From positions 146,317-210,316 of the forward strand of contig JAFVHU010000152.1 of the NCBI GenBank assembly GCA_017474385.1: DNA of 64,000 nucleotides. Reading direction: 5' to 3'. Of this stretch, positions 35,170-49,997 are shown piece by piece. The first letter of the stretch is position 1, and every line of letters starts with the position of its first letter. Made by a program: the position numbers and the translations under genes. The DNA comes from Afipia sp. Lineage in GTDB: Bacteria > Pseudomonadota > Alphaproteobacteria > Rhizobiales > Xanthobacteraceae. A model generated the notes under the pieces. The model did no database searches. It was not told where the DNA came from and was given only the letters and a program-made list of their open reading frames with translations.

Positions 35170-35185
35170 TGTGACTTGGTTCACA
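35170..35185. promoter_or_regulatory. CRP-type operator TGTGA-N6-TCACA
   Basis: Exact match to the CRP consensus half-sites with CTTGGT as the centre. It lies 52 bp upstream of a small membrane-protein gene and near a CRP-like regulator gene (35566-36285) and an adenylyl cyclase gene. A weak -10 (ACTAAT near 35205) would put the site near position -40, a normal activation distance. Confidence 0.65.
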
Positions 35186-35565: not shown

Positions 35566-36285
35566 TTAATCCTGCGAGCGCTCCGCCATCCCCTTCAACG
35601 AATCCACATCGATGACGGTGATCGATCCGCGTTGAAGACGGACTAGCTTCCGGTCAGCCCACTCCTGCAGTTGCTTGTTGACGCTCTCGCGCGACAGGCC
35701 AAGCATCTCGCCAATTTCCTGCTGCGTAATGGTGATTTTGTTATCCAGTGCGGCGCCCGGTCGATCGATCAGACGGATGAGTGCCTTGGCAAGCTTGCCC
35801 GACAGGTCAGGAAATATAACCTGCTCCACATGATCGCTGATCCAACGCAATCGGACGCAAAGCAGTTCTATCAGTTTTGTTGCCAGCACCGGTTGGCTGG
35901 CCAACAAAGATAAAAAGTCCCTTCGATCAATGACAAACAGCTCGCTGTCCGAATTTGCGATGGCGTCGGCGGTTCTGGCGAGGCCATCGAGAACCGCGAT
36001 CTCACCGAACATCTCTCCCGCGTCGACCATATTGAAAATGGCGCCTCGGCCATCGGCGGATGAGACGCCGATCTTCACCGTGCCGCTGATAATGAAGAAC
36101 AGGCTTTGGCCCGGATCCCCTTTCGCGAAAATCGTTGCGCCGCGTTTATAGGTTCTCTTTTTCGCGTAGTGGCACAACTGATCTAACGCATCAGCTCCGA
36201 GATCGCGAAACAGAGGATGATTGCGCAAGACATTCGTCTTGTCGCCAGCAGATCGGGCTAAGGTCGGCTTGTCGTCCTGGAGCAT
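35566..36285 (-). CDS. Crp/Fnr-family regulator, CRP-like
   Basis: 239 residues. N-terminal cyclic-nucleotide-binding domain: TIFAKGDPGQSLFFIISGTVKIGVSSADGRGAIFNMVDAGEMFGEIAVLDGLARTADAIANSDSEL. The phosphate-binding-cassette region FGEIAVLDGLARTADA resembles CRP (FGELGLFEEGQERSAWV) in the FGE-IA start and Arg position. No Cys cluster for an Fe-S centre is present. The C-terminal HTH reads TQQEIGEMLGLSRESVNKQLQEW, whose SRE-V core matches the CRP recognition helix (SRETVGR). That fits the TGTGA half-sites found in this window. It stands back to back with the adenylyl cyclase gene, which supports cAMP as effector. Confidence 0.88.
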   Translation of the reverse strand: MLQDDKPTLARSAGDKTNVLRNHPLFRDLGADALDQLCHYAKKRTYKRGATIFAKGDPGQSLFFIISGTVKIGVSSADGRGAIFNMVDAGEMFGEIAVLDGLARTADAIANSDSELFVIDRRDFLSLLASQPVLATKLIELLCVRLRWISDHVEQVIFPDLSGKLAKALIRLIDRPGAALDNKITITQQEIGEMLGLSRESVNKQLQEWADRKLVRLQRGSITVIDVDSLKGMAERSQD

Positions 36286-36567: not shown

Positions 36568-39500
36568 TTGGTCGGCAGCATAGATCATCGCTGTAGCTAC
36601 TGCGGTTTCCTTTTGGAACCGACAGCCAGATTTTGCGGTGGCTGTGGGCGCCCAAAGGCCCGCTCCACCGAGACGGCGTCGCAGGCGCTTTCCTTTCTGC
36701 AATCGAACATCCCCGCTGACCTTGCCGAGCGCATTTTGCGTTCCGGCGGCGCAATGCTCGGCGAGCGCAAACACGTCACGGTCGTTTTTGCGGATGTCCG
36801 CGATTCGACAGCCCTGATCGATCAACTCGATCCGGAGGAAGTGCTCCAGGTTCTTGGTCCTGTCCTCAAAAGTCTGATGGATGCAGTCCATCATCACGAT
36901 GGCTTCGTGAACCAGACCCTCGGCGACGGGATTATGGCGCTGTTCGGAGCCCCTATCGCGCGGGAGGATCATGCGGTCCAGGCGTGCAGCGCAGCGCTTG
37001 CGATGCGAACCGCCGTCGGCGAACTCAACCAAAGGACCGGACGGGATATTGCCATCCGCATCGGCATGAATTCCGGCGAGGTCGTGATCCATTCGATCGG
37101 CAACAATCTCGCGATGAACTACGACGCCGTCGGCAAGAGCGTCCATCTGGCCGCACGAATGGAGGAACTCGCCGCACCAGGCAAGATCCTGCTGACCGCA
37201 GCAACACATGATCTTGCGAAAGGGTTTGTGACGGTCGAGCCACGGGGATTTGTGGAGGTGAAAGGCGTCTCGGAAGCGATTGAAGTTTTCGAGTTAACGG
37301 CAATACGGATGAGAACGCGATGGCAGGTCCGGTCCGCGCGAGGCCTCAGCGTCCTCGTTGACCGCCAGAACGAACTGCGCAGCCTGCGAAGCGCCCTCGA
37401 GCGCGCCGCAGCAGGAAATGGACAGTCGCTGAGCATTGTCGGCGCAGCAGGGCTGGGAAAATCCCGGCTGATACACGATTTCATCCGGAATCTCTCCGAC
37501 GAATGGACCGTGCTTGAGACCGCCTGCCCCTCGCAACGAACGAGTTCGAGCTACTACCCCATCGGCATCCTGATCAGAGCCATGTTCGGGGTTGGCGTTG
37601 ATGACAATCCCGAGACTGTCATTGCCCGCGTCAAGGAAGGGATCGACCGGCTGGACAGCAATCTGTCGGTTTTCTTGCCGCCAATTCTCTCGCTGCTGGA
37701 TCTTAACGCTGAGGACCAGGAGTGGAAAAAGCTGGAGCCATCGGAGCGACGGCTTAAAACCATGGAAGCCGTCAGATCGCTGGTTTTCCACTACGCTCAG
37801 TCAAATCCCTCGGTGATCCTGGTCGAGGACCTTCACTGGGCCGATGCCGAGACGAAGCTCATCCTGCAAAATCTGGCCGGCGCGCTGGAAGGCACGCGGA
37901 CCGTTCTCATCGGAACGCAACGTCCCGAGGGCGGGCCACTGGATCCCGGCACAATTGGTATCGATTTGTCGCCGCTTGATGATGCGACGTCGCACCAGTT
38001 GATGGACTGGCTCATGGGCGACGACAGCAGCCTCATTCCGTTAAAGCGGAAAATGTTGGCGCAGTCGCAAGGCAATCCCTTATTTATGGAAGAACTGGTC
38101 CAGACCCTCAAGGAAACGGGGTATCTTAAGGGACAGCCGGGAAACTATCTCGCCGCTAAACGAACCGGCCGGGTTGAAATTCCGCAAACCATTCATTCAG
38201 TGCTTGCGGCGCGCATCGATCTCCTCGATGGATTTCCAAAGTCCCTGCTTCAGACGTCGGCCGTTATCGGCACGGAGATTTCTGTCGCCCTGCTCTCGGA
38301 AATGCTGGACGTGACTCCTGCGGAAATTTCCGGCGAGCTTCGAACGTTGGAAGCTGCCGATTTTCTCCGGAAAATCAGAAGCACCACATCGGCCGACTAT
38401 TCCTTCAAGCATGAGCTCACGCGTGAAGTTGTCTACGGCACCATGCTGCTCGGCCTTCGGCGCTCGCTTCATGCCAAAGCCGTCGACATTATCGAGTCGC
38501 GCTTTCCCGATCGCCTTGACGAGTACATTGATCGGCTCGCCGACCACGCGTTCAAGGCAGAACTATGGGAAAAGGCCGTCCCCTACCAGTTGCGCAGTTG
38601 TCGGCGCGCCGTAAAGCGCGGAGCCAATCAGGACGCAATCAACATCTTCGAGCGTGGCCTGGAAACCCTGTCACATCTGCCAGCCTCTCCCGCCAAGATC
38701 AAAACCGAGATTGATTTCCGCCTGACGCTGGTGATTGCGCTCGAACCGCTCGGCAAACATCGCCGGATAGCGGAGGTCCTGCGCGAAGCAAGTCGTCTGG
38801 CCGACGCTTCCGGAGACCCTCTACGCACAGCCGCGGTCAATTGTCAGCTTGCTGTGGCGCTTTGGAGGCTTGGAGAGCATGCTCCCGCGATGGCCGCGGC
38901 CGAAACCGCAAGCCGCATCGCGGATAAAATCGGCGATCCATCTCTCCAGTTCGCAGCACTCCTCATTGTGGGCATCGTCCACCACGAGCTCGGCAATTTC
39001 GCAACCTCGATCGATATGCACGAAAAGTGCATTGCGATTGAAACACCGGAGCTTGACCAGAAGCGAGCCGGCTGGGCTGCCTATCCCAGCGTTCTTTTGC
39101 GAACCTTCATGGCAGATTCGCTGACCGAACTCGGCGAACTCGACCGCGCGGAAACGGTGGCTGAGGACGCCAGCAGACGCGCTGAAATTCTGGATCACGC
39201 TTACTCGCGCGCGAATATCAATCATGTGCTTGGTCGTCTGCGGACCGCCCAGGGGCGGCATGCCGAAGCGCTCCCTCTTTTGCGCGAAAGCTGGCAGACC
39301 TGTCTGGATCTCGAAATGGTCCAGATGTATCCCGTCTTCGCAGCCCGCATGGGTGAAGCCCATCTCGCGACCGGCGACGTCGAGACTGCCCTCGACATCC
39401 TGTCGGTGCCTGAGCGGCTCGACGTACCGCTGGCGGAGCATTCGTTCGGTTGGCGCTATCTTTTCCTTGCTCAAGGCAGGGCCCTGCTCGCGGCTGGCCG

Positions 39501-39768
39501 TCTTGCCGAAGCGCATGCGGCAGGTGAGCGTGCGCTGGCGCTCGCCGAACAGCGCGGGGAGCCGCCACAGCAGGCCTATGCGACGCATTTGCTCGGTGAA
39601 GTCGCGCGTGCCAGTAACCCGGAGGATCACGTCGCAGCCAATGCCTATTTCAAACTCGCATTGGGGTTTGCAGAGAAGTGCGGCATGCAGGCTCTGGTGG
39701 CAGCCTGTCGTCGCGCGACGGAGAACTCCGAAAATCGAAACAGAGAGCCCAGCGTCGCGGGCAGATAA
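36568..39768 (+). CDS. Class III adenylyl cyclase with zinc ribbon, STAND-like ATPase and TPR domains
   Basis: 1066-residue cytosolic protein. Residues 9-26 form a zinc ribbon (CSYCG...CGGCG). The cyclase domain (~65-245) has both metal Asp residues (D76 in VFADVRDS, D120 in LGDGIMALFG). The transition-state Asn of NxxxR is a His (H193, SVHLAARM), with R197 kept. Then comes an AAA16-type ATPase with Walker A GAAGLGKSRL (291-300) and Walker B VILVEDLHWAD, and about 450 residues of TPR-like helices. This family is common in Bradyrhizobium. The frame opens after a TAG and the first usable start is TTG at 36568 with AAGG 8 bp upstream. Divergent from the CRP-like regulator gene, suggesting a cAMP circuit. 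Cyclase activity is inferred. Confidence 0.9.
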   Translation: MVGSIDHRCSYCGFLLEPTARFCGGCGRPKARSTETASQALSFLQSNIPADLAERILRSGGAMLGERKHVTVVFADVRDSTALIDQLDPEEVLQVLGPVLKSLMDAVHHHDGFVNQTLGDGIMALFGAPIAREDHAVQACSAALAMRTAVGELNQRTGRDIAIRIGMNSGEVVIHSIGNNLAMNYDAVGKSVHLAARMEELAAPGKILLTAATHDLAKGFVTVEPRGFVEVKGVSEAIEVFELTAIRMRTRWQVRSARGLSVLVDRQNELRSLRSALERAAAGNGQSLSIVGAAGLGKSRLIHDFIRNLSDEWTVLETACPSQRTSSSYYPIGILIRAMFGVGVDDNPETVIARVKEGIDRLDSNLSVFLPPILSLLDLNAEDQEWKKLEPSERRLKTMEAVRSLVFHYAQSNPSVILVEDLHWADAETKLILQNLAGALEGTRTVLIGTQRPEGGPLDPGTIGIDLSPLDDATSHQLMDWLMGDDSSLIPLKRKMLAQSQGNPLFMEELVQTLKETGYLKGQPGNYLAAKRTGRVEIPQTIHSVLAARIDLLDGFPKSLLQTSAVIGTEISVALLSEMLDVTPAEISGELRTLEAADFLRKIRSTTSADYSFKHELTREVVYGTMLLGLRRSLHAKAVDIIESRFPDRLDEYIDRLADHAFKAELWEKAVPYQLRSCRRAVKRGANQDAINIFERGLETLSHLPASPAKIKTEIDFRLTLVIALEPLGKHRRIAEVLREASRLADASGDPLRTAAVNCQLAVALWRLGEHAPAMAAAETASRIADKIGDPSLQFAALLIVGIVHHELGNFATSIDMHEKCIAIETPELDQKRAGWAAYPSVLLRTFMADSLTELGELDRAETVAEDASRRAEILDHAYSRANINHVLGRLRTAQGRHAEALPLLRESWQTCLDLEMVQMYPVFAARMGEAHLATGDVETALDILSVPERLDVPLAEHSFGWRYLFLAQGRALLAAGRLAEAHAAGERALALAEQRGEPPQQAYATHLLGEVARASNPEDHVAANAYFKLALGFAEKCGMQALVAACRRATENSENRNREPSVAGR

Positions 39769-39795: not shown

Positions 39796-41271
39796 TTACC
39801 TTGCCAGCGCACGAACGGCTTCAATCCCGGGCAGAAAGAAATAGGCGCCACCGCGCACCCGGACAAACGGACGCGGCCTGTCGATATGGTGGTTCGTTGG
39901 CCGGTCCTGAATAGTGGCTACATCTCCAGCGCAACTGAAATGTCCGAGCGGGTCTGTCCCGGAATAAAGACCGCCGAAATGTGTGTTGTTCAGCCAGGAG
40001 TGCTGGATCATCTCGAATTGCCCGGCGATGTCCGCGTTGAGAGCGATGAATGAAATTCCTCGCGTCGCTTGCTTACCGCCTGCATTTTCCTTCGCGGTGT
40101 CGAACCTTTCTCCATAAGGCCTGCCGCGCCTGATAATGCGATGCATTTTTGAAAGACGCAGAGCTGTGTCGGCATCCGGCCCGACAGTATCTCGCGGATT
40201 CGCGCGGCGGATGTGAGCACCGATCGGGCAAGCCATCCCGAAACGGTCCTCGAAATAATAGAGAAAGTCGTTGCGCGGAGCCGCGCCAGGCGGCCGTTCT
40301 ATCGGAACCAGAGGATCGCCTTGGCGCGTTCGCCCGACAAGCTGCGACGCAATCTTTTCCTGCGCGGGCTCATCGGCGCGACCATAGACACGCTCAGCCG
40401 TCTTCGCAACAAATTCATTGAAGGCAGGTACATCCTGTTCCAGTTGCCGGAACACGAGGTATGTCCCATTGCGCCGGATGTCTTGTGGCTCTGCGCTCCC
40501 ATCATTCCGCTCAGGATAGACATCCGAGATGCTGGTACGACGCTCGTTCTTGTAACCGAGCACAAACTCACCGGGCTTGACGAGAAGAATCCGCTTTTCA
40601 TCCGAGGTCAGTTTCTTGTTGTGATCGGCATCGCTACTGCGCTTCCTGCCGTTTCCGTTTGCCTTGGGCGACCCCTCAATCAAAGGCTGAGAAATTCCGT
40701 CGGTAAATCCAAAGTGCTCTTTGCGATCGTCATAGATCCGGCCGTCGACAATAAGCGGTTCGCCGTTCTGCCGCACTGCTGGCGTAGCCGCTCCGGCCAT
40801 TGCGTCGATTTCGGCAGCGATGAACGAGAGCAGCTTCGTTTTGTCGGGAGCGTAAAGTAGCAGCATTCCGTCAATGTCGCGGCTCTCTTTCCAGCCACCC
40901 CACTCCCAGACCTCGGGCGAGCTTTCACCAACATCTCCGAGAACATTCGATCGGCGCGGAAACTTCGTTTCCGCTGTCGGCTTCGGGGCCATTCCTTCGA
41001 GAAATTCGAGAGAGAAACTGTTCAGCACTCCATCGCTGACGCGGAGATACTGCAGGCCATGCGCCGTAAGTGCCAGATTGATCGCATGTTGATCGCTGTG
41101 GGCCGTCGCGCACGTCAGCCGATCGGACAACCGCCTCAGCCACTTCCTTGCGGCGTCGACCTCGCCGGGTACGAAGTGCCAGAAGACGTAAGCGGAAAAT
41201 GGCAATTTCGGATATCCGCTCAGCACCAGCCTCTGAACGTCATCCCATTCAACCTTTTCCATGGCATTCAT
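39796..41271 (-). CDS. DyP-type haem peroxidase
   Basis: 491 residues, a long-form dye-decolourising peroxidase. The family motif is GFTDGISQP (GxxDG with the distal Asp), the proximal haem His is in ACPIGAHIRRANPRDT, and the distal Arg is in HRIIRRGRPYG. The end NNTHFGGLYSGTDPLGHF...VRVRGGAYFFLPGIEAVRAL is typical. No signal peptide, so it acts in the cytosol or at the membrane's inner face. It oxidises a substrate with H2O2. Third gene of an operon with a P450 and a large membrane protein, 5 bp after the latter. The pairing of two different haem oxygen-chemistry enzymes is the unusual part. Confidence 0.92.
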   Translation of the reverse strand: MNAMEKVEWDDVQRLVLSGYPKLPFSAYVFWHFVPGEVDAARKWLRRLSDRLTCATAHSDQHAINLALTAHGLQYLRVSDGVLNSFSLEFLEGMAPKPTAETKFPRRSNVLGDVGESSPEVWEWGGWKESRDIDGMLLLYAPDKTKLLSFIAAEIDAMAGAATPAVRQNGEPLIVDGRIYDDRKEHFGFTDGISQPLIEGSPKANGNGRKRSSDADHNKKLTSDEKRILLVKPGEFVLGYKNERRTSISDVYPERNDGSAEPQDIRRNGTYLVFRQLEQDVPAFNEFVAKTAERVYGRADEPAQEKIASQLVGRTRQGDPLVPIERPPGAAPRNDFLYYFEDRFGMACPIGAHIRRANPRDTVGPDADTALRLSKMHRIIRRGRPYGERFDTAKENAGGKQATRGISFIALNADIAGQFEMIQHSWLNNTHFGGLYSGTDPLGHFSCAGDVATIQDRPTNHHIDRPRPFVRVRGGAYFFLPGIEAVRALAR

Positions 41272-41276
41272 CCATA

Positions 41277-43331
41277 TCAGAGGCTTCGAAATATCGTGTC
41301 GATCTCGCCATAGTTCCGCGGCTTGAACAGCGACTGTCTCAGCTCGGTACTGGCGTTGATATTGATGACGCTGAGCGTGGGATATGCGCCGTACCAGACG
41401 ATCGTCTCAACCTGGCTTTGGCGCACGTAGGCCTTGAAAGGCTGTTCGGCCTGCGCGCCTTTCCAGAAAAGGAATTTCGACGCAGGAAATCCGTAGGATT
41501 TTCCATCGGCCGTAACGAACGTGTTCGACCAGATGGCATTCAGGCCCTTCACAGCCGCCAGATCGATGAACTCGTTGAGATAGCTTTCCCAGGCGCCGCC
41601 ATAGTTATCGAGGAACAGGAGCCGCTTCCCGCCATCGATCATCACCCACCGCGCCGACAGGATCGTCGGTATGCCGCCAAGTTGTCCGCGATTGAACCAG
41701 AAGCGAGACAGCAGGTTGATGACGAACAGCGCGAGGCGCAACAGCCAGCAGCGAATGAAGCCTGGCTTCACGGTCGTTATGCTGGCCAGATGGTTCTGAT
41801 ACCTGTTGATGCCGCCTTCTTCGCGGGCATACTTCCTGGCATTCTCGCGGGCATGCGCGATGAGTTCGGCAGGCTCCGAGAAATTGCGTTTGTCCCTGAT
41901 CTCAAGCGTTCGTATGATCGCGAATATGAGAAGCCCGAGGGCATAAAAAGTCAAAACTCCAATGAGCCCGTAAGCCACAGTGACAAGAACGGCAAAAACG
42001 AATGACCGCGCGACCATCGCGATCTGCTCGCTGACGGCAAACGGGATATGACGCGCAACGAGCAGAACGCCAATGGCCGTCACGATGACCATCGCGAACC
42101 TGACAAGATCAAGCGCCAACCGGCGGACATTCTCGCGAGCTGTGCCGTATGGCCGAAGCTGGACAGCAAGCTTCAGGGACGTTGCCAAATGACTCAGAAC
42201 CGCCAGAACCAAGCCGACAACGAAGAGCCGCCAAGCGATCGAAACTCCCGTTAAGACCCATGCCCAGAAGCCGGATTGAGTTGCTTCAGCGCCTGCCGAT
42301 CGAGCCGCAGTCATTCCAGAAATGATAGCCAGCACGACGGAACCAACAAGAAACACGATCAGCACGTATCTGACGATAACCGCGATCTGCAGTGGAAACC
42401 GGTTGATGAAGAGCTGGTCGTGAGGATTCTTCGTCCATCCGGTCAGGAAGAGTTCAAAGACGCGGACGATCAGCCAGACCCCGGTCAAGGCAACAAGGAT
42501 GTGAAGGATCGCAGGCTCGATCGTGATGTGGCTGGCAACCCAGGGAAACCAGAAAACCATAAAGTTGCTGATGCTGGCTCCGATGTGGCTCACATGCTCG
42601 AAGGCCCGAACGATATGTCCGTAGAGCACATACGGCCCCAACCCGAACAGCGCGCCCACGGCTATGCCGGTAACGCAGACCACGACGAACGCCGCGAAAG
42701 CAGCCGCAGCGACAATCCCTGAACGTTGCCGTATCTCCCACGGTGTTGGCGCAACTTGCTCGGCCCAGCGATTATTATCCAGGCCGCGGATCACATGCCG
42801 GCGCACCTCGTCAAGAAATCCGGCCGATCGCGCCGGAACAGCGGCGCCCGGCTGGCATCGTTTTGAAAGGAACGTGAGAATATCGCGGCGGAGAAGGCTT
42901 TCGCCCTGAATTTGCGCAACGGAACGCCCCGGACTGCCGCTGAAAAAGGTGTTCGCGCCGACGTCATGGTTCGCAAGGTACTCTTCGATCAGTTGAGGCG
43001 CGGCTGGCACGGAAAACGGATAGTCCGTGCAATGTCGATAGACCTCATGCATGCCCTCTGATGCAATTTCCAGCAACTCATCCAGAAAATCTTCTCTCGA
43101 TCCGTCGAAGGTCGCCTCGAACACGAGGCTCGGAGCAAATTCGCCGTCTGCATCGAGGATGACAAAGCTGCAAAAATGCAGGCTTGCGATCTTGTCGAAC
43201 CGGAACAAAGGCTGGCATTCAATGAGATCGCCGGCGAGACGCGGCTCAGCCTTGTCGCGCAGATACTTCCGGCACGCGTCCACACGGCCCGGTTCGAGCG
43301 GCGTGATGATGGTCGTGTAGTTCGGGTTCAC
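41277..43331 (-). CDS. Large polytopic membrane protein of unknown function between P450 and DyP peroxidase
   Basis: 684 residues; I do not recognise a named family. An N-terminal soluble part (~1-200) has PSLVFEATFDGSREDFLDELLEIA. A central membrane block (~205-495) holds about seven to eight spans, including VAAAAFAAFVVVCVTGIAVG, IAVIVRYVLIVFLVGSVVLA and VFAVLVTVAYGLIGVLTFYAL. A C-terminal soluble part (~540-684) contains RLLFLDNYGGAWESYLNEFIDLA. The N- and C-terminal stretches resemble each other (hydrophobic strand, Asn/Asp-Gly, then an acidic helix), suggesting a repeated ferredoxin-like fold as found in DyP relatives. ATGA overlap with the P450 gene and 5 bp to the peroxidase show strict co-expression. 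It may anchor or feed both enzymes. Confidence 0.8.
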   Translation of the reverse strand: MNPNYTTIITPLEPGRVDACRKYLRDKAEPRLAGDLIECQPLFRFDKIASLHFCSFVILDADGEFAPSLVFEATFDGSREDFLDELLEIASEGMHEVYRHCTDYPFSVPAAPQLIEEYLANHDVGANTFFSGSPGRSVAQIQGESLLRRDILTFLSKRCQPGAAVPARSAGFLDEVRRHVIRGLDNNRWAEQVAPTPWEIRQRSGIVAAAAFAAFVVVCVTGIAVGALFGLGPYVLYGHIVRAFEHVSHIGASISNFMVFWFPWVASHITIEPAILHILVALTGVWLIVRVFELFLTGWTKNPHDQLFINRFPLQIAVIVRYVLIVFLVGSVVLAIISGMTAARSAGAEATQSGFWAWVLTGVSIAWRLFVVGLVLAVLSHLATSLKLAVQLRPYGTARENVRRLALDLVRFAMVIVTAIGVLLVARHIPFAVSEQIAMVARSFVFAVLVTVAYGLIGVLTFYALGLLIFAIIRTLEIRDKRNFSEPAELIAHARENARKYAREEGGINRYQNHLASITTVKPGFIRCWLLRLALFVINLLSRFWFNRGQLGGIPTILSARWVMIDGGKRLLFLDNYGGAWESYLNEFIDLAAVKGLNAIWSNTFVTADGKSYGFPASKFLFWKGAQAEQPFKAYVRQSQVETIVWYGAYPTLSVININASTELRQSLFKPRNYGEIDTIFRSL

Positions 43332-44812
43332 CGTTCCCGAGTCCCGATGGTTTGCTTGTTGAATGTAAGTACAAATGAATATGGCGCCGGCCCTTCATAA
43401 CGGATCTGTCCCTCGGCCCCGGATGCGCGCGCGAGACCGGGAAGACGCAGCAATGCCCGCACCATTTCCATCAGAGCGTTCTCGGCAACGTATCGTCCGA
43501 AGCAGCGACGCTCCCCGTCGCCAAAATGAATGTAGCTCTCAAGCGGACGCTGCGGATCGAAGCGCCACGGCTGTGGAAATGCGTCCGGGTCAAACATGGC
43601 GGCCAGCGGTGCGGCCAGAACACGCGCGCCTGCCAGCACGATGCGCACGCGCCCGGTTCCGTTGGCGATAATTGTTTCGCGCGGACAGTCGCGGACCAGC
43701 AAAGGGAGCATCGGCCGAAACCGAAGAGCCTCATAGATATAGTGTGTCAGCGCGTTGCGCGATCTTGCCACACGCTCCGCCACAGAGCGCCGTTCGATTT
43801 CCGATGCGCTGCTGGTGAGACGTCGTTCATGGGCTTCCGCATCATCGAGCGCTGCGGCAAGCAGTTGCGCTTCTTTCAAGGCATCCGGCCGCGCCACGAG
43901 CTGATCGACCATCTGCGACGTCCCGCGGACGACCGTCGCCAGGCCGGTCGCAACCAGGCCAGTCAGGTATCGTCGTATCCAGTCTTCATCAAACCACTTT
44001 GGCGTGCCACCAGCGTGCAGCAGCGCAGTCAGGCGCGTCAGCAAGTTGTCGGGAAGCTCGTTTTGGTGCGATGCGCCGATTGCTGACTTTACAACTGCAA
44101 TCTGCTCCAGCAGTTGTTGGGTCAGGGCAACCATATCGTCACGCGAGTCGATCCAGGGCTTTGAGCCGACCGGAGGATTGACCATAATGATGCCGGCCAG
44201 GTTACGCGTGGCGCGCGCCATGCGGCGCTTGTCATTCTTCAACGGAGCGACGCCGAAATAGTCGGCGGCGATCCGAATGACGGCAGGCTCCGCAAGCTCG
44301 GCAACCATGTCGATCCGGCCGTTGGCGGCAGCGGCTATCCGCTCGCGGCATTCATCAGCGACAGCTTTCCTGATTATCTGCGGGTCAGCCTCGCGCTTGA
44401 CTACACTCTGGAGAAGCCCCCGCTCGCGCGCGTGCTGCTCGCTCCAGTCAACCGTCATCAGGAATGCCCCCCACGGCATCCCCGGCTCGATCACCTCGCC
44501 GAGCGTGAAATCATCGAAGCGTCCGAGAACCTCGCGGACATCGCTCATCTTGGTGAGAACGACGAGCTTGCCGAAGATCGAGATCGGGCGCACGCGGCGA
44601 AGCACCGTGAAGGCAAGTTTGAGAAACCAGAGATGGCAAAAGATGTAGGAACTGAATCGGTAGCTCGCCATCTGCCTGGCCAGCGAGATCTTCTGCCAAA
44701 GCCGGGTCAGAGCGCCACCGTCCGTCGCCTGCCACTGTCGGCGCGGAGGCGCGGCGGCCGTGGCGCCGCGAGGTGGACCTTCGATCATTGAATCAGGAAC
44801 GTTCGTGCTCAT
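43328..44812 (-). CDS. Cytochrome P450
   Basis: 494-residue soluble-type P450. The haem-thiolate loop is FGDGERRCFGRYVAENALMEM (Cys ligand in GERRCFG) and the K-helix ExxR is EALRFRP. The I-helix region LTGLVATGLATVVRGTSQMVDQL lacks the usual acidic-Thr (D/E-T) pair: the alignable stretch reads ATGLATVVRG. Oxygen activation may therefore be unconventional, or peroxide-driven, as known for some P450s lacking this pair. It is the first gene of the P450-membrane protein-DyP operon. There is no ferredoxin or reductase partner nearby, which also fits a non-standard electron source. Substrate unknown. Confidence 0.9.
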   Translation of the reverse strand: MSTNVPDSMIEGPPRGATAAAPPRRQWQATDGGALTRLWQKISLARQMASYRFSSYIFCHLWFLKLAFTVLRRVRPISIFGKLVVLTKMSDVREVLGRFDDFTLGEVIEPGMPWGAFLMTVDWSEQHARERGLLQSVVKREADPQIIRKAVADECRERIAAAANGRIDMVAELAEPAVIRIAADYFGVAPLKNDKRRMARATRNLAGIIMVNPPVGSKPWIDSRDDMVALTQQLLEQIAVVKSAIGASHQNELPDNLLTRLTALLHAGGTPKWFDEDWIRRYLTGLVATGLATVVRGTSQMVDQLVARPDALKEAQLLAAALDDAEAHERRLTSSASEIERRSVAERVARSRNALTHYIYEALRFRPMLPLLVRDCPRETIIANGTGRVRIVLAGARVLAAPLAAMFDPDAFPQPWRFDPQRPLESYIHFGDGERRCFGRYVAENALMEMVRALLRLPGLARASGAEGQIRYEGPAPYSFVLTFNKQTIGTRER

Positions 44813-45117
44813 GACGACATCCCGCAGTTATCGCTGGCAACGCACGCGCTAAAAATCTGGATCGGCAATGGATTGGTATGCGCGGCAGATCGCAAGATAT
44901 CATCTCCACGAACGGACGGCCAATACTTCGAGGTTCACAAGCGGGAAGCAGGCGGCAGAGTTTTCGGAGAGCAAAGACCTTAGCGAACGCTCTGCAAATC
45001 TTTAATGACACCAACAGTTTGGGTGGGCGCACGGGCTCCGCTCCCTAATGCTGCAGGGCGCTGGATAGCTCGATCGCCTCCCGCTTTTGAAAATAGCTGA
45101 TCGGGATGGCTTTCGAA

Positions 45118-45133
45118 TGTGAACTCATTCACA
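45118..45133. promoter_or_regulatory. CRP-type operator TGTGA-N6-TCACA
   Basis: Exact consensus half-sites with centre ACTCAT; one more flanking base pair (A/T) is symmetric. It is centred 61 bp from a second, weaker site at 45179. It lies 306 bp upstream of the P450 gene and about 100 bp left of the pobA relic, so its original target is uncertain. Confidence 0.6.
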
Positions 45134-45178
45134 TCCCGCGCAGTTTCTGTTGCGGTGAGGCTATGGAATCCTGCGGTC

Positions 45179-45194
45179 TGTGGGTGAGATCACA
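45179..45194. promoter_or_regulatory. Second CRP-like operator (one mismatch)
   Basis: TGTGG-GTGAGA-TCACA. It has one mismatch to the palindromic consensus and is spaced 61 bp centre to centre from the perfect site at 45118, close to six helical turns, so the two would lie on about the same face of the DNA. Confidence 0.45.
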
Positions 45195-45216
45195 GACAAA
45201 CTTCTCCCTTTGCTGA

Positions 45217-46009
<793 letters not shown>

Positions 46010-46352: not shown

Positions 46353-47153
46353 TCACCAAGCTGGGAGCACCGCTCCCTTGAACTTCGCAAGGACGAAATC
46401 GCGTACCTCCGGCGTCTGATAGCTGTCGACCAGATCGTTGACCCATGGCTTGTCCTTGTCTGCGGCGCGCACCGCAATCAGGTTCGCATATGGACCTTTG
46501 GGATCTTCGCGCAGGATCGCATCCTTCACCGGGTCGAGTCCCGCCTGCGTGGCATAGTTGGTATTGACAGCCGCGGCATCGACATCGTCGAGCGTACGCG
46601 GCGTTTGTGCCGCATCGATCTCAACGATCTTCAGCTTCTTTGTGTTCTCGACAATATCGACAATCGTCGGTTTGAAACCTACACCGTCCCTCAGTTTGAG
46701 CGCGCCCTTGTCACGCAGCAGCAGAAGGACGCGGCCGCCGTTGGTCGGATCGTTCGGGATCGACAACGTGGCGCCTTGCGGAATGGCATCCCAGCTCTTG
46801 TGCTTCTTGGAGTAAATCCCGATCGGGAAGTTTACCGTATAGCCAACGGGCTCGATCTTGTAGCCCCGATCGGCCTTCTGATTGTCTAGATAGGGCTTAT
46901 GTTGGAACGAATTGGCCTGCAACTCGCCCGACTCCAGAGCTGCATTCGGCACGACATAATCGGAGAATTCGACGATATGGATGTCGAGCCCCTTCTTCGC
47001 GGCAATTGGCTTGACCGCCTCGAGGATCTGCGCGTGCGGCCCCGGCGTCACCCCAACCTTGATGACTTGCGGCTGTTGCGCCACAGTGAGATTTGGCGAA
47101 CCGGCCACGAGTGTGCCGATTGCCAGCAACCGGACAAAATGTCTGCGCTTCAT
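46353..47153 (-). CDS. MetQ/NlpA-family substrate-binding protein (copy 1)
   Basis: 266-residue periplasmic binding protein. The ATG at 47153 has AAGGA 8 bp upstream. The signal region is MKRRHFVRLLAIGTLVAGSPNLTVAQQ; there is no lipobox Cys, so it is soluble rather than a lipoprotein. The Arg pair and following hydrophobic stretch leave Tat export possible. Family motifs: IKVGVTPGPHAQILE, EFSDYVVPNAALESGELQANSFQHKPYL, and IPNDPTNGGRVLLLL. Third intact gene of the metN-metI-metQ-metQ operon, 28 bp after copy 2. Methionine or a related sulfur compound is the family ligand; two differing copies suggest different ligands. Confidence 0.88.
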   Translation of the reverse strand: MKRRHFVRLLAIGTLVAGSPNLTVAQQPQVIKVGVTPGPHAQILEAVKPIAAKKGLDIHIVEFSDYVVPNAALESGELQANSFQHKPYLDNQKADRGYKIEPVGYTVNFPIGIYSKKHKSWDAIPQGATLSIPNDPTNGGRVLLLLRDKGALKLRDGVGFKPTIVDIVENTKKLKIVEIDAAQTPRTLDDVDAAAVNTNYATQAGLDPVKDAILREDPKGPYANLIAVRAADKDKPWVNDLVDSYQTPEVRDFVLAKFKGAVLPAW

Positions 47154-47181
47154 CAATTCAATCCTTTGAGCGAAGAGCCGC

Positions 47182-47958
47182 TCACCATGTTGCGATATAG
47201 GTGCCTTTGAAGCGGGTATCGAGGAACTGTTTGACCGGCTCGGAGTGATAAGCGCCGATCAGCTGCTTGACCCACGGCTTGTCTTTGTCTTCTTCACGCA
47301 CCGCGAGAATGTTGATCCACGGGCCTTCGAGGCTTTCGCGCGCGATGGCATCCTTCGCCGGATTGAGCCCAGCCTGAACGGCATAGTTGTTGTTGATCGA
47401 AGCCAGATCGACATCCTGCAACGAGCGCGGCAGCTGTGCCGCATCAAGCTCAACAAACTTCAGCTTCTTCGGATTCTCTACAATGTCGGCGACCGTCGCG
47501 GTCACGCCGACGCCCGGCCTCAGCTTGATCAGCCCCTGCTCCGCCAGGATCAGGAGCCCGCGCGCGCCATTGGACGGATCGTTGGCAATCGCCACGCGTG
47601 CAACTTCGGGAAGATCCGCGAGCGTCTTGTACTTGATCGAATAGACCCCCTGCGGCGACGCGATGGTGTTCGCGACCTTCACAATCTTCCAGTTCGTCTT
47701 TGATATCTGGTTCTTGAGGTAAGGCTCGTGCTGGAAGGAATTCGCCTCGATATCCTTCTGCGCCAGAGCCTGGTTCGGCACCACATAGTCCGTGAACTCA
47801 ACGACCTTGATGTCCAGCCCACGCTCGGCGGCAACCTTGCGCACGACATCGAGCACCTCGGCATGCGGCCCGGCGGTGACACCGACCCTGATGGTTTCGG
47901 CCTGGGCCGCGCCGATCAGCGCGGCAAGAGCAAAGACAGACGCCGTAAGCGTGCGCAT
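47182..47958 (-). CDS. MetQ/NlpA-family substrate-binding protein (copy 2)
   Basis: 258 residues. The ATG at 47958 has GGGAG 9 bp upstream and yields a clean signal MRTLTASVFALAALIGAAQAE. Core motifs IRVGVTAGPHAEVLDVVRKVAAERGLDIKVVEFTDYVVPNQALAQKDIEANSFQHEPYL are close to E. coli MetQ. It follows metI by 23 bp. More similar than copy 1 to the relic at 46012 in the AAQLPRSL...NPAKDAIA segment. Confidence 0.9.
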   Translation of the reverse strand: MRTLTASVFALAALIGAAQAETIRVGVTAGPHAEVLDVVRKVAAERGLDIKVVEFTDYVVPNQALAQKDIEANSFQHEPYLKNQISKTNWKIVKVANTIASPQGVYSIKYKTLADLPEVARVAIANDPSNGARGLLILAEQGLIKLRPGVGVTATVADIVENPKKLKFVELDAAQLPRSLQDVDLASINNNYAVQAGLNPAKDAIARESLEGPWINILAVREEDKDKPWVKQLIGAYHSEPVKQFLDTRFKGTYIATW

Positions 47959-47981
47959 GGAAAACAACTCCCTATAATGAT

Positions 47982-48647
47982 TCATGAACGTTGCGAGCGC
48001 TTGTCCAGGCGCCGGGCGATGGTGTCACCGATGGTCTGCACGCTTTGAACGAGCGCAATCAGCACCAAAACAACAGTCAGCATCACCTCGGGCATGAATC
48101 GCTGGTAACCGTAACGAATTCCAAGATCGCCAAGACCGCCACCGCCGACCGCTCCGACCATGGCCGAATAGCCGATCAGACTGACCGCGGTAAGCGTCAA
48201 TGCAAGCGTCACTCCCGGCATTGCCTCCGGCAGCAGAACTTTACGCACGATCTGCAACGGGCTCGCACCGAAGGCCCGCGCGGCCTCGATCAGTCCTTGA
48301 TCCACCTCGCGAATGGCCGCTTCGATAACACGAGCGATGAACGGCGTCGCCGCGATCGTCAGCGGCACGGTGGCCGCGGCGGTGCCGATCGACGTTCCGG
48401 CGATCAACCGGGTCAACGGAACAATGGCGACGACCAGGATGATGAATGGCGTCGAGCGCGTCGCATTGACGATGAGGCCCACGACACGGTTGACCGTTGG
48501 CGCCGGAAACAACTCATTAGCGCGACTGGTCGCAAGGAAGACTCCGAGCGGCAGACCGATCAGCGTTCCGAAGCAGCCGGCCAACGCCACCATCATGAGT
48601 GTATCGAGCGTCGCCCAGGCAATCATTTGCAGAAGTTCAGGAGACAT
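47982..48647 (-). CDS. metI: MetI-type ABC transporter permease
   Basis: 221-residue inner-membrane permease. Start at 48647 ([23 protein letters not shown]) overlaps the metN stop by 11 bp. The five spans and the coupling loop [26 protein letters not shown] are typical of MetI, as is [20 protein letters not shown]. Works with MetN and one of the two MetQ proteins. Confidence 0.92.
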
Positions 48648-49761
48648 AGCCGAGGTGCTCCACCGCGTTTCCGCTTGATTTGAGTTGAGCAACGATCTTG
48701 CTCACAAGATCGGGCGATGATGGTACCGAAACGATAAGCGTCCCGAACGGATGGTCCGCGATCGTCTCGACCTGCCCGTAAAGGATGTTCACGTCGACAT
48801 CGAAGGTCCGCGAGATCTGCGACAGCAGCGGCCCGCTCGCGTCGGCGCCCTTGAAGGAGACATGAAGCACAGCCTGATCGCCTGGCTGGCACGCTGCCTT
48901 GAGCCGGGCGAGCAGCCATTCCGGCGCCTGACTTCCAGTGACCGAACCGACGAACCGTTTCGTCACCTCATGCTGAGGCGACGCGAAAATGTCGAACGTC
49001 GTCCCTTCCTCGACAATCTTGCCGTGCTCCAGCACCGCCACGCGATCAGCAAGGGCTTTCACCACCGCCATTTCGTGGGTGATGAAAAGGATGGTCAGAC
49101 GAAGCTCGATATTGATCCGGTTCAGCAGCGCGAGGATTTGATCGGTCGTCTCCGGATCGAGCGCGGATGTCGCCTCGTCCGACAGCAGGACCTTGGGATT
49201 GGTCGCGAGAGCGCGGGCAATGCCGACCCGCTGCTTCTGTCCGCCAGACAGTTCGGCGGGATAACGGTCGCGTTTGTCAACCAGGCCGACCATGTCGAGC
49301 AAAGGTTCGACTCTTTTGACAATCTCGCTTTTCGACACACCAGCGATTTCAAGTGGCAGCGCAATATTCTCAAAAGCCGTTCGCGACGACAGCAAATTGA
49401 AATGTTGGAAGATCATGCCGATCGAACGTCGGGCTTGCCGCAGAGACGGCTCATCGAGCGCCGTAATTTCGGTGCCGTTGACATGCACCGAACCTTGAGT
49501 TGGATGTTCAAGACCGTTGATCAGACGGATCAGTGACGATTTTCCAGCGCCGCTGCGCCCAATGACGCCAAGGATGGCTCCCTCTGGAACCTTCAGATTA
49601 ATGTCGTCGAGTGCAACGACTTCGCAAGTACCTTTTCGCGCCGGATAGACTTTGCGAATGTCCTCAAGACGTATGCCGGATGATGCCGACGTGAGGTTCG
49701 CAAGCAATGGCGTTCCACTCTGCTGCAACCAAGGCGCGTTCATATGAGGCGTCGATTCCAT
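48637..49761 (-). CDS. metN: MetN-type ABC transporter ATPase with C-terminal NIL domain
   Basis: About 374 residues. ATPase motifs: Walker [10 protein letters not shown], signature [15 protein letters not shown], Walker [15 protein letters not shown]-loop ITHEM. The segment [46 protein letters not shown] near the C-terminus is the NIL (ACT-like) domain by which methionine inhibits transport in E. coli MetNI. The start is uncertain (49761 or 49743; both lack a strong ribosome site). First gene of the operon. I see no SAM riboswitch in the 236 bp upstream. Confidence 0.9.
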
Positions 49762-49997
49762 GATGTTGAATAGCGAGCTGCGCGCTGGCAGCCTCTTTCG
49801 ACTATCAGAAAATCGATGCACCGCAATGCACCTATGCGACAAAGCAATACGTCGGTTACAGAATCTTGCGCGCTGAAAGATTTTTTCAAATTTCCGCCAA
49901 TGTACAGCGCGCGCGTCCTACGCTCTACTGCATGATCCGCCCGCAAAAATTCATGCATCCGAAAGAATAGCGAGACACCGTCTAACCAAGCAGCGAT

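Follow-up and report, generated by a model that had tools for sequence, protein, structure and literature searches.

Fungal dioxygenase–P450 fusions, among them the linoleate diol, epoxy alcohol and allene oxide synthases, combine a haem peroxidase-type domain and a cytochrome P450 in one chain, and coral and cyanobacterial systems pair a catalase-related allene oxide synthase or hydroperoxide lyase with a fatty-acid oxygenase. In the fungal proteins the dioxygenase precedes the P450 and, to our knowledge, no ABM-like membrane scaffold is involved. Their P450s are described as needing no electron-transfer partner and as having a variable distal I-helix residue (PMC13049297). Here we compare these systems with an operon in a 64,000-nucleotide stretch of Afipia sp. 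DNA (contig JAFVHU010000152.1, positions 146,317–210,316 of the forward strand; hereafter the window), which encodes a P450, a membrane protein of 684 residues that we call MEM, and a DyP-type peroxidase. The oxygenase of the PpoA-type fungal fusions is related to cyclooxygenase, whereas the peroxidase here is a DyP, outside the cyclooxygenase superfamily. The same difference separates the P450–MEM–DyP unit from the coral and cyanobacterial systems: a DyP is present, and no lipoxygenase or cyclooxygenase-type dioxygenase was recognised at the loci, although no such profile was run.

The three genes lie on the minus strand in the co-directional order P450 (43328–44812, 494 amino acids), MEM (41277–43331) and DyP (39796–41271, 491 amino acids). 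The stop codon of the P450 gene and the start codon of MEM overlap by four bases, and MEM and DyP are separated by five. An earlier reading of this DNA, the original prediction, proposed that the three genes are tightly coupled. That proposal stands, although the overlap reads GTGA rather than ATGA, MEM starting with GTG. The range that it assigned to the operon, 41271–44812, reaches only one base into the DyP gene and leaves out the rest of it. The observation was therefore partly confirmed, in that the operon is real and its details have been corrected. The closest named relative is Afipia, and the C-terminal domain of MEM is 94% identical to that of A. birgiae.

Conservation of the unit and its fusions

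MEM was found in 19 of the 398 genomes of a phylum sample by a search with MEM itself and in 28, the window's own included, by a profile of its C-terminal domain; setting the window's genome aside leaves the 27 loci tallied below. One weak hit without a MEM domain (L050) is not among them, and a second weak hit (L092) is, as the sole locus of the 27 lacking a DyP. A scan of a genome collection gave 480 confirmed relatives, the best 80 of which serve here as named loci, a choice biased towards the window's kin. These best 80 of 480 apparently come from Pseudomonadota, Bacteroidota, Actinomycetota, Myxococcota, Gemmatimonadota, Armatimonadota and Planctomycetota. MEM is uncommon in two other phyla sampled, occurring in one of 296 Bacteroidota and four of 296 Actinomycetota sample genomes, with the centre genomes included. 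The 27- and 80-locus sets share at least one contig, the domain profiles used for later tallies were built from the first loci found and are not independent of the sample, and two pairs of contigs judged by their length to be duplicates (L035 = L101, L036 = L138) were reduced only in the 105-locus tally given below.

DyP is adjacent to MEM in 26 of the 27 phylum-sample loci (same strand, within 3 kb) and in all 80 named loci, and a P450 is the third partner in 15/27 and 59/80. In the phylum sample, the third partner is a separate P450 at nine loci, part of a triple fusion at six, a catalase-like protein at seven and absent at five, one of these being the weak hit without DyP. The corresponding numbers for the named loci are 39, 19, 4 and 17, with one further P450 encoded on the opposite strand. 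Each of the seven MEM-like loci of the actinobacterial sample (six places in four genomes) has a DyP within short flanks; a P450 is found at only one of them and a catalase-like protein at one. We regard it as near-certain that MEM and DyP, usually together with a P450, constitute one conserved unit, carried side by side or in a single polypeptide.

The triple fusions are single chains of 1388–1535 residues, with the P450 attached to the N-terminal end of MEM and the DyP to its C-terminal end. All 19 found among the best 80 of the 480 relatives apparently come from Rhizobiales-type genera; a fusion of 1527 residues in the phylum sample (G380) is kin to the window at the class level only, and a Novosphingobium plasmid encodes one of 1443 residues. 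Two annotated fusions carry the labels 'cytochrome P450' and 'Dyp-type peroxidase domain-containing protein', so that natural P450–MEM–DyP fusions have been identified behind plain single-enzyme annotations. Examples of natural fusions are WP_011907039.1 (SARO_RS19865) of Novosphingobium aromaticivorans DSM 12444 and WP_276121424.1 of Pararhizobium qamdonense. Pairwise distances of the three proteins over 54 loci correlate with r of 0.936–0.956, and none of 2000 permutations was as high, a comparison that ignores shared ancestry. Conservation across phyla, the single-polypeptide fusions and this co-inheritance refute the idea that the genes are chance neighbours in one lineage, the probability of which we take to be negligible. 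The suggestion of a membrane-anchored unit common to P450 and DyP is strongly supported by both adjacency and fusion, and the opposite picture, of MEM homologues lying mostly without P450 or DyP neighbours, is not what the loci present.

The three proteins

Searches of Pfam and NCBIfam with the window MEM gave no match in either. Hydropathy and a structure model agree with the original prediction that MEM is polytopic, with a soluble domain at each end. It had called these domains unassignable; the structure model now predicts them to be the two halves of one ABM-like alpha-beta barrel with the membrane bundle between them. On the minus strand, the N-terminal half (residues ~1–132) is encoded at 42936–43331, the transmembrane helical bundle (residues ~202–482, from hydropathy peaks and model helices) at 41886–42728, and the C-terminal half at 41277–41804. 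The last is the most conserved part in alignments A2 and A4, with the motif region NYGGAWESYLNEF. Alignment A4 comprises the window and 76 of the 80 loci (without L094, L132, L145 and L152), and His51 (alignment numbering) of the N-terminal half is invariant in its 77 rows. In the model, two ferredoxin-like halves pack as one barrel pair, as in the two-domain SchA/WhiE-ORFI proteins. Because the predicted barrel is split across the membrane bundle, both ends of MEM should lie on the same side. MEM differs from the ABM/SchA-like polyketide proteins WhiE-ORFI and AbxO in having a membrane bundle between the halves, and sequence identity to them is 12–13%. A role as a transporter was considered from the Foldseek rows for MtrD (top row, E 2.5e-3) and AcrB (3.2e-2) and was set aside, with TM ~0.1 for both; rows for MscS and BAR structures match mainly on helices.

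The window DyP scores 31.2 bits against PF20628 (Dyp_perox_C; Pfam cut-off 20) and 92.6 bits against TIGR01413, just below the NCBIfam cut-off of 100.5, and it matches PDB entry 8re3 over its full length (E 5.8e-38). A long DyP stretch is present at 79 loci, of which 68 entered alignment A6 together with the window; the 11 omitted are mostly near-duplicates, and the short L116 was also left out. Asp191, His353 and Arg381 are invariant in all 69 rows, as expected for the DyP superfamily, and we take them to be the Asp of the GxxDG motif, the proximal His and the distal Arg. The place of Arg381 in the motif is our ground for calling it the distal residue, and the neighbouring residue 382 is also Arg in 47/69. 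The full-length match and the three catalytic residues relate this protein to the 8re3 and 8re2 DyPs, from which it differs in falling under the TIGR01413 cut-off; we know of no membrane or P450 partner for those enzymes. Lignin degradation is not favoured as a role, since Methylomonas and Bacteroidota carry the unit and no signal peptide is evident by eye on the window DyP. Most bacterial DyPs are not known to have an established physiological substrate; for this one, the accompanying enzymes, the geometry of the fusions and the regulator offer directly testable clues.

The window P450 belongs to the cytochrome P450 superfamily by its profile match (PF00067, 51.9 bits; Pfam cut-off 22.8), its haem ligand Cys437 in the loop FGDGERRCFG and its ExxR motif (EALR), and when folded singly it is predicted to adopt a normal P450 fold. 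In alignment A5, which comprises the window and 54 loci (omitting L139, L145 and the short L100, L157 and L171, with the P450s of L139 and L157 being weak matches at 2e-9 and 5e-7), the Cys ligand is kept in 55/55, and ExxR is present in 48 and DxxR in seven. Read against the P450cam I-helix motif GGLDTVV, our assumed reference for the acid–alcohol positions, the window sequence TGLATVV (43928–43948) has Ala292 in place of the acid and retains Thr293. The Cys loop and ExxR are thus kept, as originally stated, whereas the proposed loss of the acidic residue–Thr pair is half right. The window P450 therefore lacks the acid–alcohol pair of a classical O2-activating monooxygenase; in the family, the D/E–T pair is intact in 17/55 and altered in 38/55, the acid being lost in 34 and the Thr in five. 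The distal I-helix Asn of CYP74/PGIS-type enzymes is likewise missing, as residues ~276–306 contain no Asn. In some fused members (L137, L138 and L147, for example) an Asn directly follows the Thr (PTN). PMC13049297 describes the CYP74-type Asn as dispensable in some hydroperoxide isomerases, so the absence of Asn from the window P450 is compatible with isomerase activity.

The P450 could be an ordinary monooxygenase served by an unlinked ferredoxin. The DyP would then act on the hydroxylated product or use H2O2 from P450 uncoupling, and MEM would be an anchor only. The predicted fold, the 17 family members with an intact D/E–T pair and the 13 Fer2 matches elsewhere in the genome are consistent with this arrangement, which is nevertheless unlikely given the frequent loss of the acid and the occasional loss of the Thr. 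The placement of the ferredoxin genes also argues against it. No Fer2 (2Fe–2S ferredoxin, Pfam) occurs in the 64-kb window, in a search that did not take in flavoprotein reductases or other ferredoxin types and a genome listed as 84% complete, yet Fer2 lies within ~0.6 kb of three other P450 matches of the same genome (contigs 134, 67 and 72). The claim that no redox partner is nearby thus holds as far as Fer2 is concerned. The original prediction's description of the system as peroxide-based is plausible in view of the intact peroxidase residues, the lack of Fer2 in the window and the altered acid–alcohol pairs, with the 17 normal pairs on the other side, and its interpretation as a whole is supported in part.

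Exchange of the third partner and the proposed chemistry

Extending the original prediction, our comparison identifies MEM and DyP as the core pair and the P450 as replaceable by a catalase-like protein. Among 105 loci, 72 have a P450, 11 a catalase-like protein, none both and 22 neither (Fisher 7.8e-7, ignoring shared ancestry). The catalase-like protein has ~375–425 residues where unfused and is encoded on the same strand at 10 of the 11 loci. Its family profile matches catalases in the PDB at 2.5e-8 and 3e4w, which we take to be a mycobacterial catalase-like protein, at 3.8e-8; the match to the allene oxide synthase–lipoxygenase protein 1u5u, presumably of coral origin, is at 5.2e-7 and covers 66 positions only. 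R370 and Y374 are kept in 9/9 rows of the alignment and fit RxxxY, which we assume to be the catalase haem motif. At L116 the catalase-like part and MEM share an open frame, and the match to the catalase profile PF00199 reaches 39.8 bits (cut-off 25). Pfam searches with the single members L041 and L043 gave no match at E ≤ 0.01, the latter sharing an open frame with DyP according to local profiles.

A GST-like protein is near or fused to the P450 at 12 of 107 loci, all of them P450-bearing, and shares its open frame at seven; the label comes from Pfam for the L125 protein and from phmmer similarity at the other loci. At L125 (5165–7258, plus strand) and other Methylomonas loci, a natural GST–P450 fusion of ~697 residues lies just 5′ of MEM and DyP. 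Patatin occurs at two loci of one genus, assigned by Pfam for L051 and by phmmer similarity for the other. We also note, at one locus (L048:8384–9778, minus strand), a RoxA-like cytochrome c (PF21419) 3′ of a DyP with a single MEM-like domain, possibly an alternative partner. At a locus without P450, an open reading frame resembling a tyrosinase-type copper protein by eye (L045:6058–6873, plus strand) precedes MEM and DyP.

The GST-like, catalase-like and DyP neighbours, together with the regulator and cyclase genes described below, could indicate a detoxification system for oxidative stress or xenobiotics. In that case P450, GST, DyP and the catalase-like protein would remove peroxides and electrophiles at the membrane under a stress-responsive cyclase/Crp switch, and no specific product would be made. 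We find this doubtful because the one-to-one stoichiometry imposed by fusion and the close co-inheritance suggest that a substrate is handed over rather than generally scavenged, and because P450 and the catalase-like protein never occur together in the 105 loci.

The reading we favour, and to which we give an even chance, is a Crp-controlled, membrane-tethered two-haem unit that handles a peroxide or hydroperoxide, with no ferredoxin chain serving the P450. We consider the assembly well supported and infer the chemistry. The strongest pointer to a hydroperoxide is the swap between P450 and the catalase-related protein. P450s and catalase-related enzymes are known to replace each other in fatty-acid hydroperoxide rearrangement, as in CYP74 and the coral allene oxide synthase. 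According to PMC13049297, P450s that isomerise hydroperoxides work without an electron chain and are variable at the distal residue, and the product of a cyanobacterial dioxygenase passes to a catalase-related lyase. In the two-haem scheme, a Crp protein loaded with cyclic nucleotide would switch on the operon, MEM would tether both haem enzymes to the membrane's inner face and the DyP would consume or produce a peroxide. The P450, or the catalase-related protein in other lineages, would then rearrange or use the hydroperoxide without a ferredoxin chain, and the ABM barrel of MEM may bind the intermediate or hand it over. By analogy with the fungal dioxygenase–P450 fusions and the coral and cyanobacterial catalase-related systems, the substrate would probably be lipophilic, possibly a fatty-acid or isoprenoid hydroperoxide. 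We put hydroperoxide chemistry at close to an even chance and hold a lipid substrate only tentatively. Weighing against this scheme are the lack of a recognised dioxygenase noted above, the small number of lipases at the loci, the family members with a normal D/E–T pair and the existence of loci without any third partner.

A more specific version, to which we assign a low probability, is a bacterial synthase of the oxylipin (lipid-mediator-like) type whose components have no relation to the cyclooxygenase cascade. The DyP would oxygenate or handle a membrane-derived lipid peroxide. The tethered, redox-partner-free P450 or, interchangeably, the catalase-related enzyme, sometimes with a GST, would isomerise it, with the ABM-like barrel acting as a channel and a dedicated cyclase–Crp switch in control. 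If correct, bacteria would have arrived by convergence at a counterpart of COX combined with prostacyclin or thromboxane synthase. A tethered P450 independent of a redox partner would be useful for biocatalysis.

Full-text searches, whose coverage excludes most subscription journals and all preprints, found no title or abstract describing a P450–DyP unit. The folds and enzyme classes are already known; within that scope, no published account of the MEM family, the P450–MEM–DyP fusion or its regulation was found. We view the unit as peroxidase–P450 coupled oxidation built from unrelated parts, and MEM as a new membrane protein family that accompanies two classes of haem enzyme.

Regulation and other genes of the window

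A cyclase, a Crp/Fnr regulator and a CRP box accompany the operon in many relatives, a feature outside the original prediction. In the window, a class III nucleotide cyclase with AAA_16 and TPR domains (36568–39768, plus strand; PF00211, 106.9 bits) is convergent with the operon, and a Crp/Fnr-type regulator with cNMP_binding and HTH_Crp_2 domains is encoded at 35566–36285 on the minus strand (PF00027, 87.8 bits). A perfect CRP-type palindrome, TGTGA-N6-TCACA (45118–45133, strandless), lies 321 bp upstream of the P450 start. The 64-kb window contains two perfect boxes where 0.03 would be expected. The second (35170–35185) is downstream of the Crp/Fnr gene, and L094, L095, L097 and L098 have boxes in roughly similar positions.

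By phmmer, Crp-like proteins are found at 37 of 107 loci and cyclase-like proteins (TPR-cyclase query) at 36. The majority of loci in the window clade, and likewise in the fused clade, have both genes near the operon, in different arrangements: in the former the cyclase is convergent and downstream of the operon, and in the latter it is upstream on the same strand, with Crp convergent. Most other lineages have no cyclase in the stretch examined. Counting the window, 7 of 14 window-clade loci have a perfect CRP box within 400 bp upstream of the first gene, as do 14 of 19 loci with a triple fusion; none of the 44 others has one, and approximately none would be expected. The box is located 45–98 bp upstream in 13 of the 14 fused-clade cases and between −68 and −321 in the window clade, the window's own position being −321.

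The recurrence of a cyclase near the operon in two clades, in differing arrangements, would also suit a haem-based sensor, in which P450 and DyP would detect O2, NO or peroxide and pass the signal on via the nearby cyclase, with catalysis secondary. This is very improbable, as the three checked peroxidase residues are invariant (69/69), most other lineages have no cyclase in the stretch examined and the CRP box suggests that the operon is the target of this control, not its source. A known anti-phage system was also considered. PADLOC gave no match at E ≤ 0.001 for the P450, MEM, DyP, one triple fusion or one catalase-like protein, and the match of the cyclase to Pycsar cyclase models was read as general class III cyclase similarity.

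At two fused loci the place taken by the cyclase elsewhere, upstream of the fusion gene, is occupied by another protein: a TPR-rich protein at L047 (5453–7114, plus strand) and an annotated SARP-family regulator at L174 (2242–3930, plus strand; SARO_RS19860). Divergent from the window operon, a remnant of a pobA-like FAD hydroxylase (named by eye) spans 44701–46009 on the plus strand. Its C-terminal part is open at 45377–46006 (FAD_binding_3 positions 223–349), and the earlier parts are in another frame or missing. The stretch 46356–49842 on the minus strand encodes two NlpA-type lipoproteins side by side and an ABC transporter ATPase that has a NIL domain, and it resembles an operon for methionine-type uptake in which the binding protein has been duplicated.

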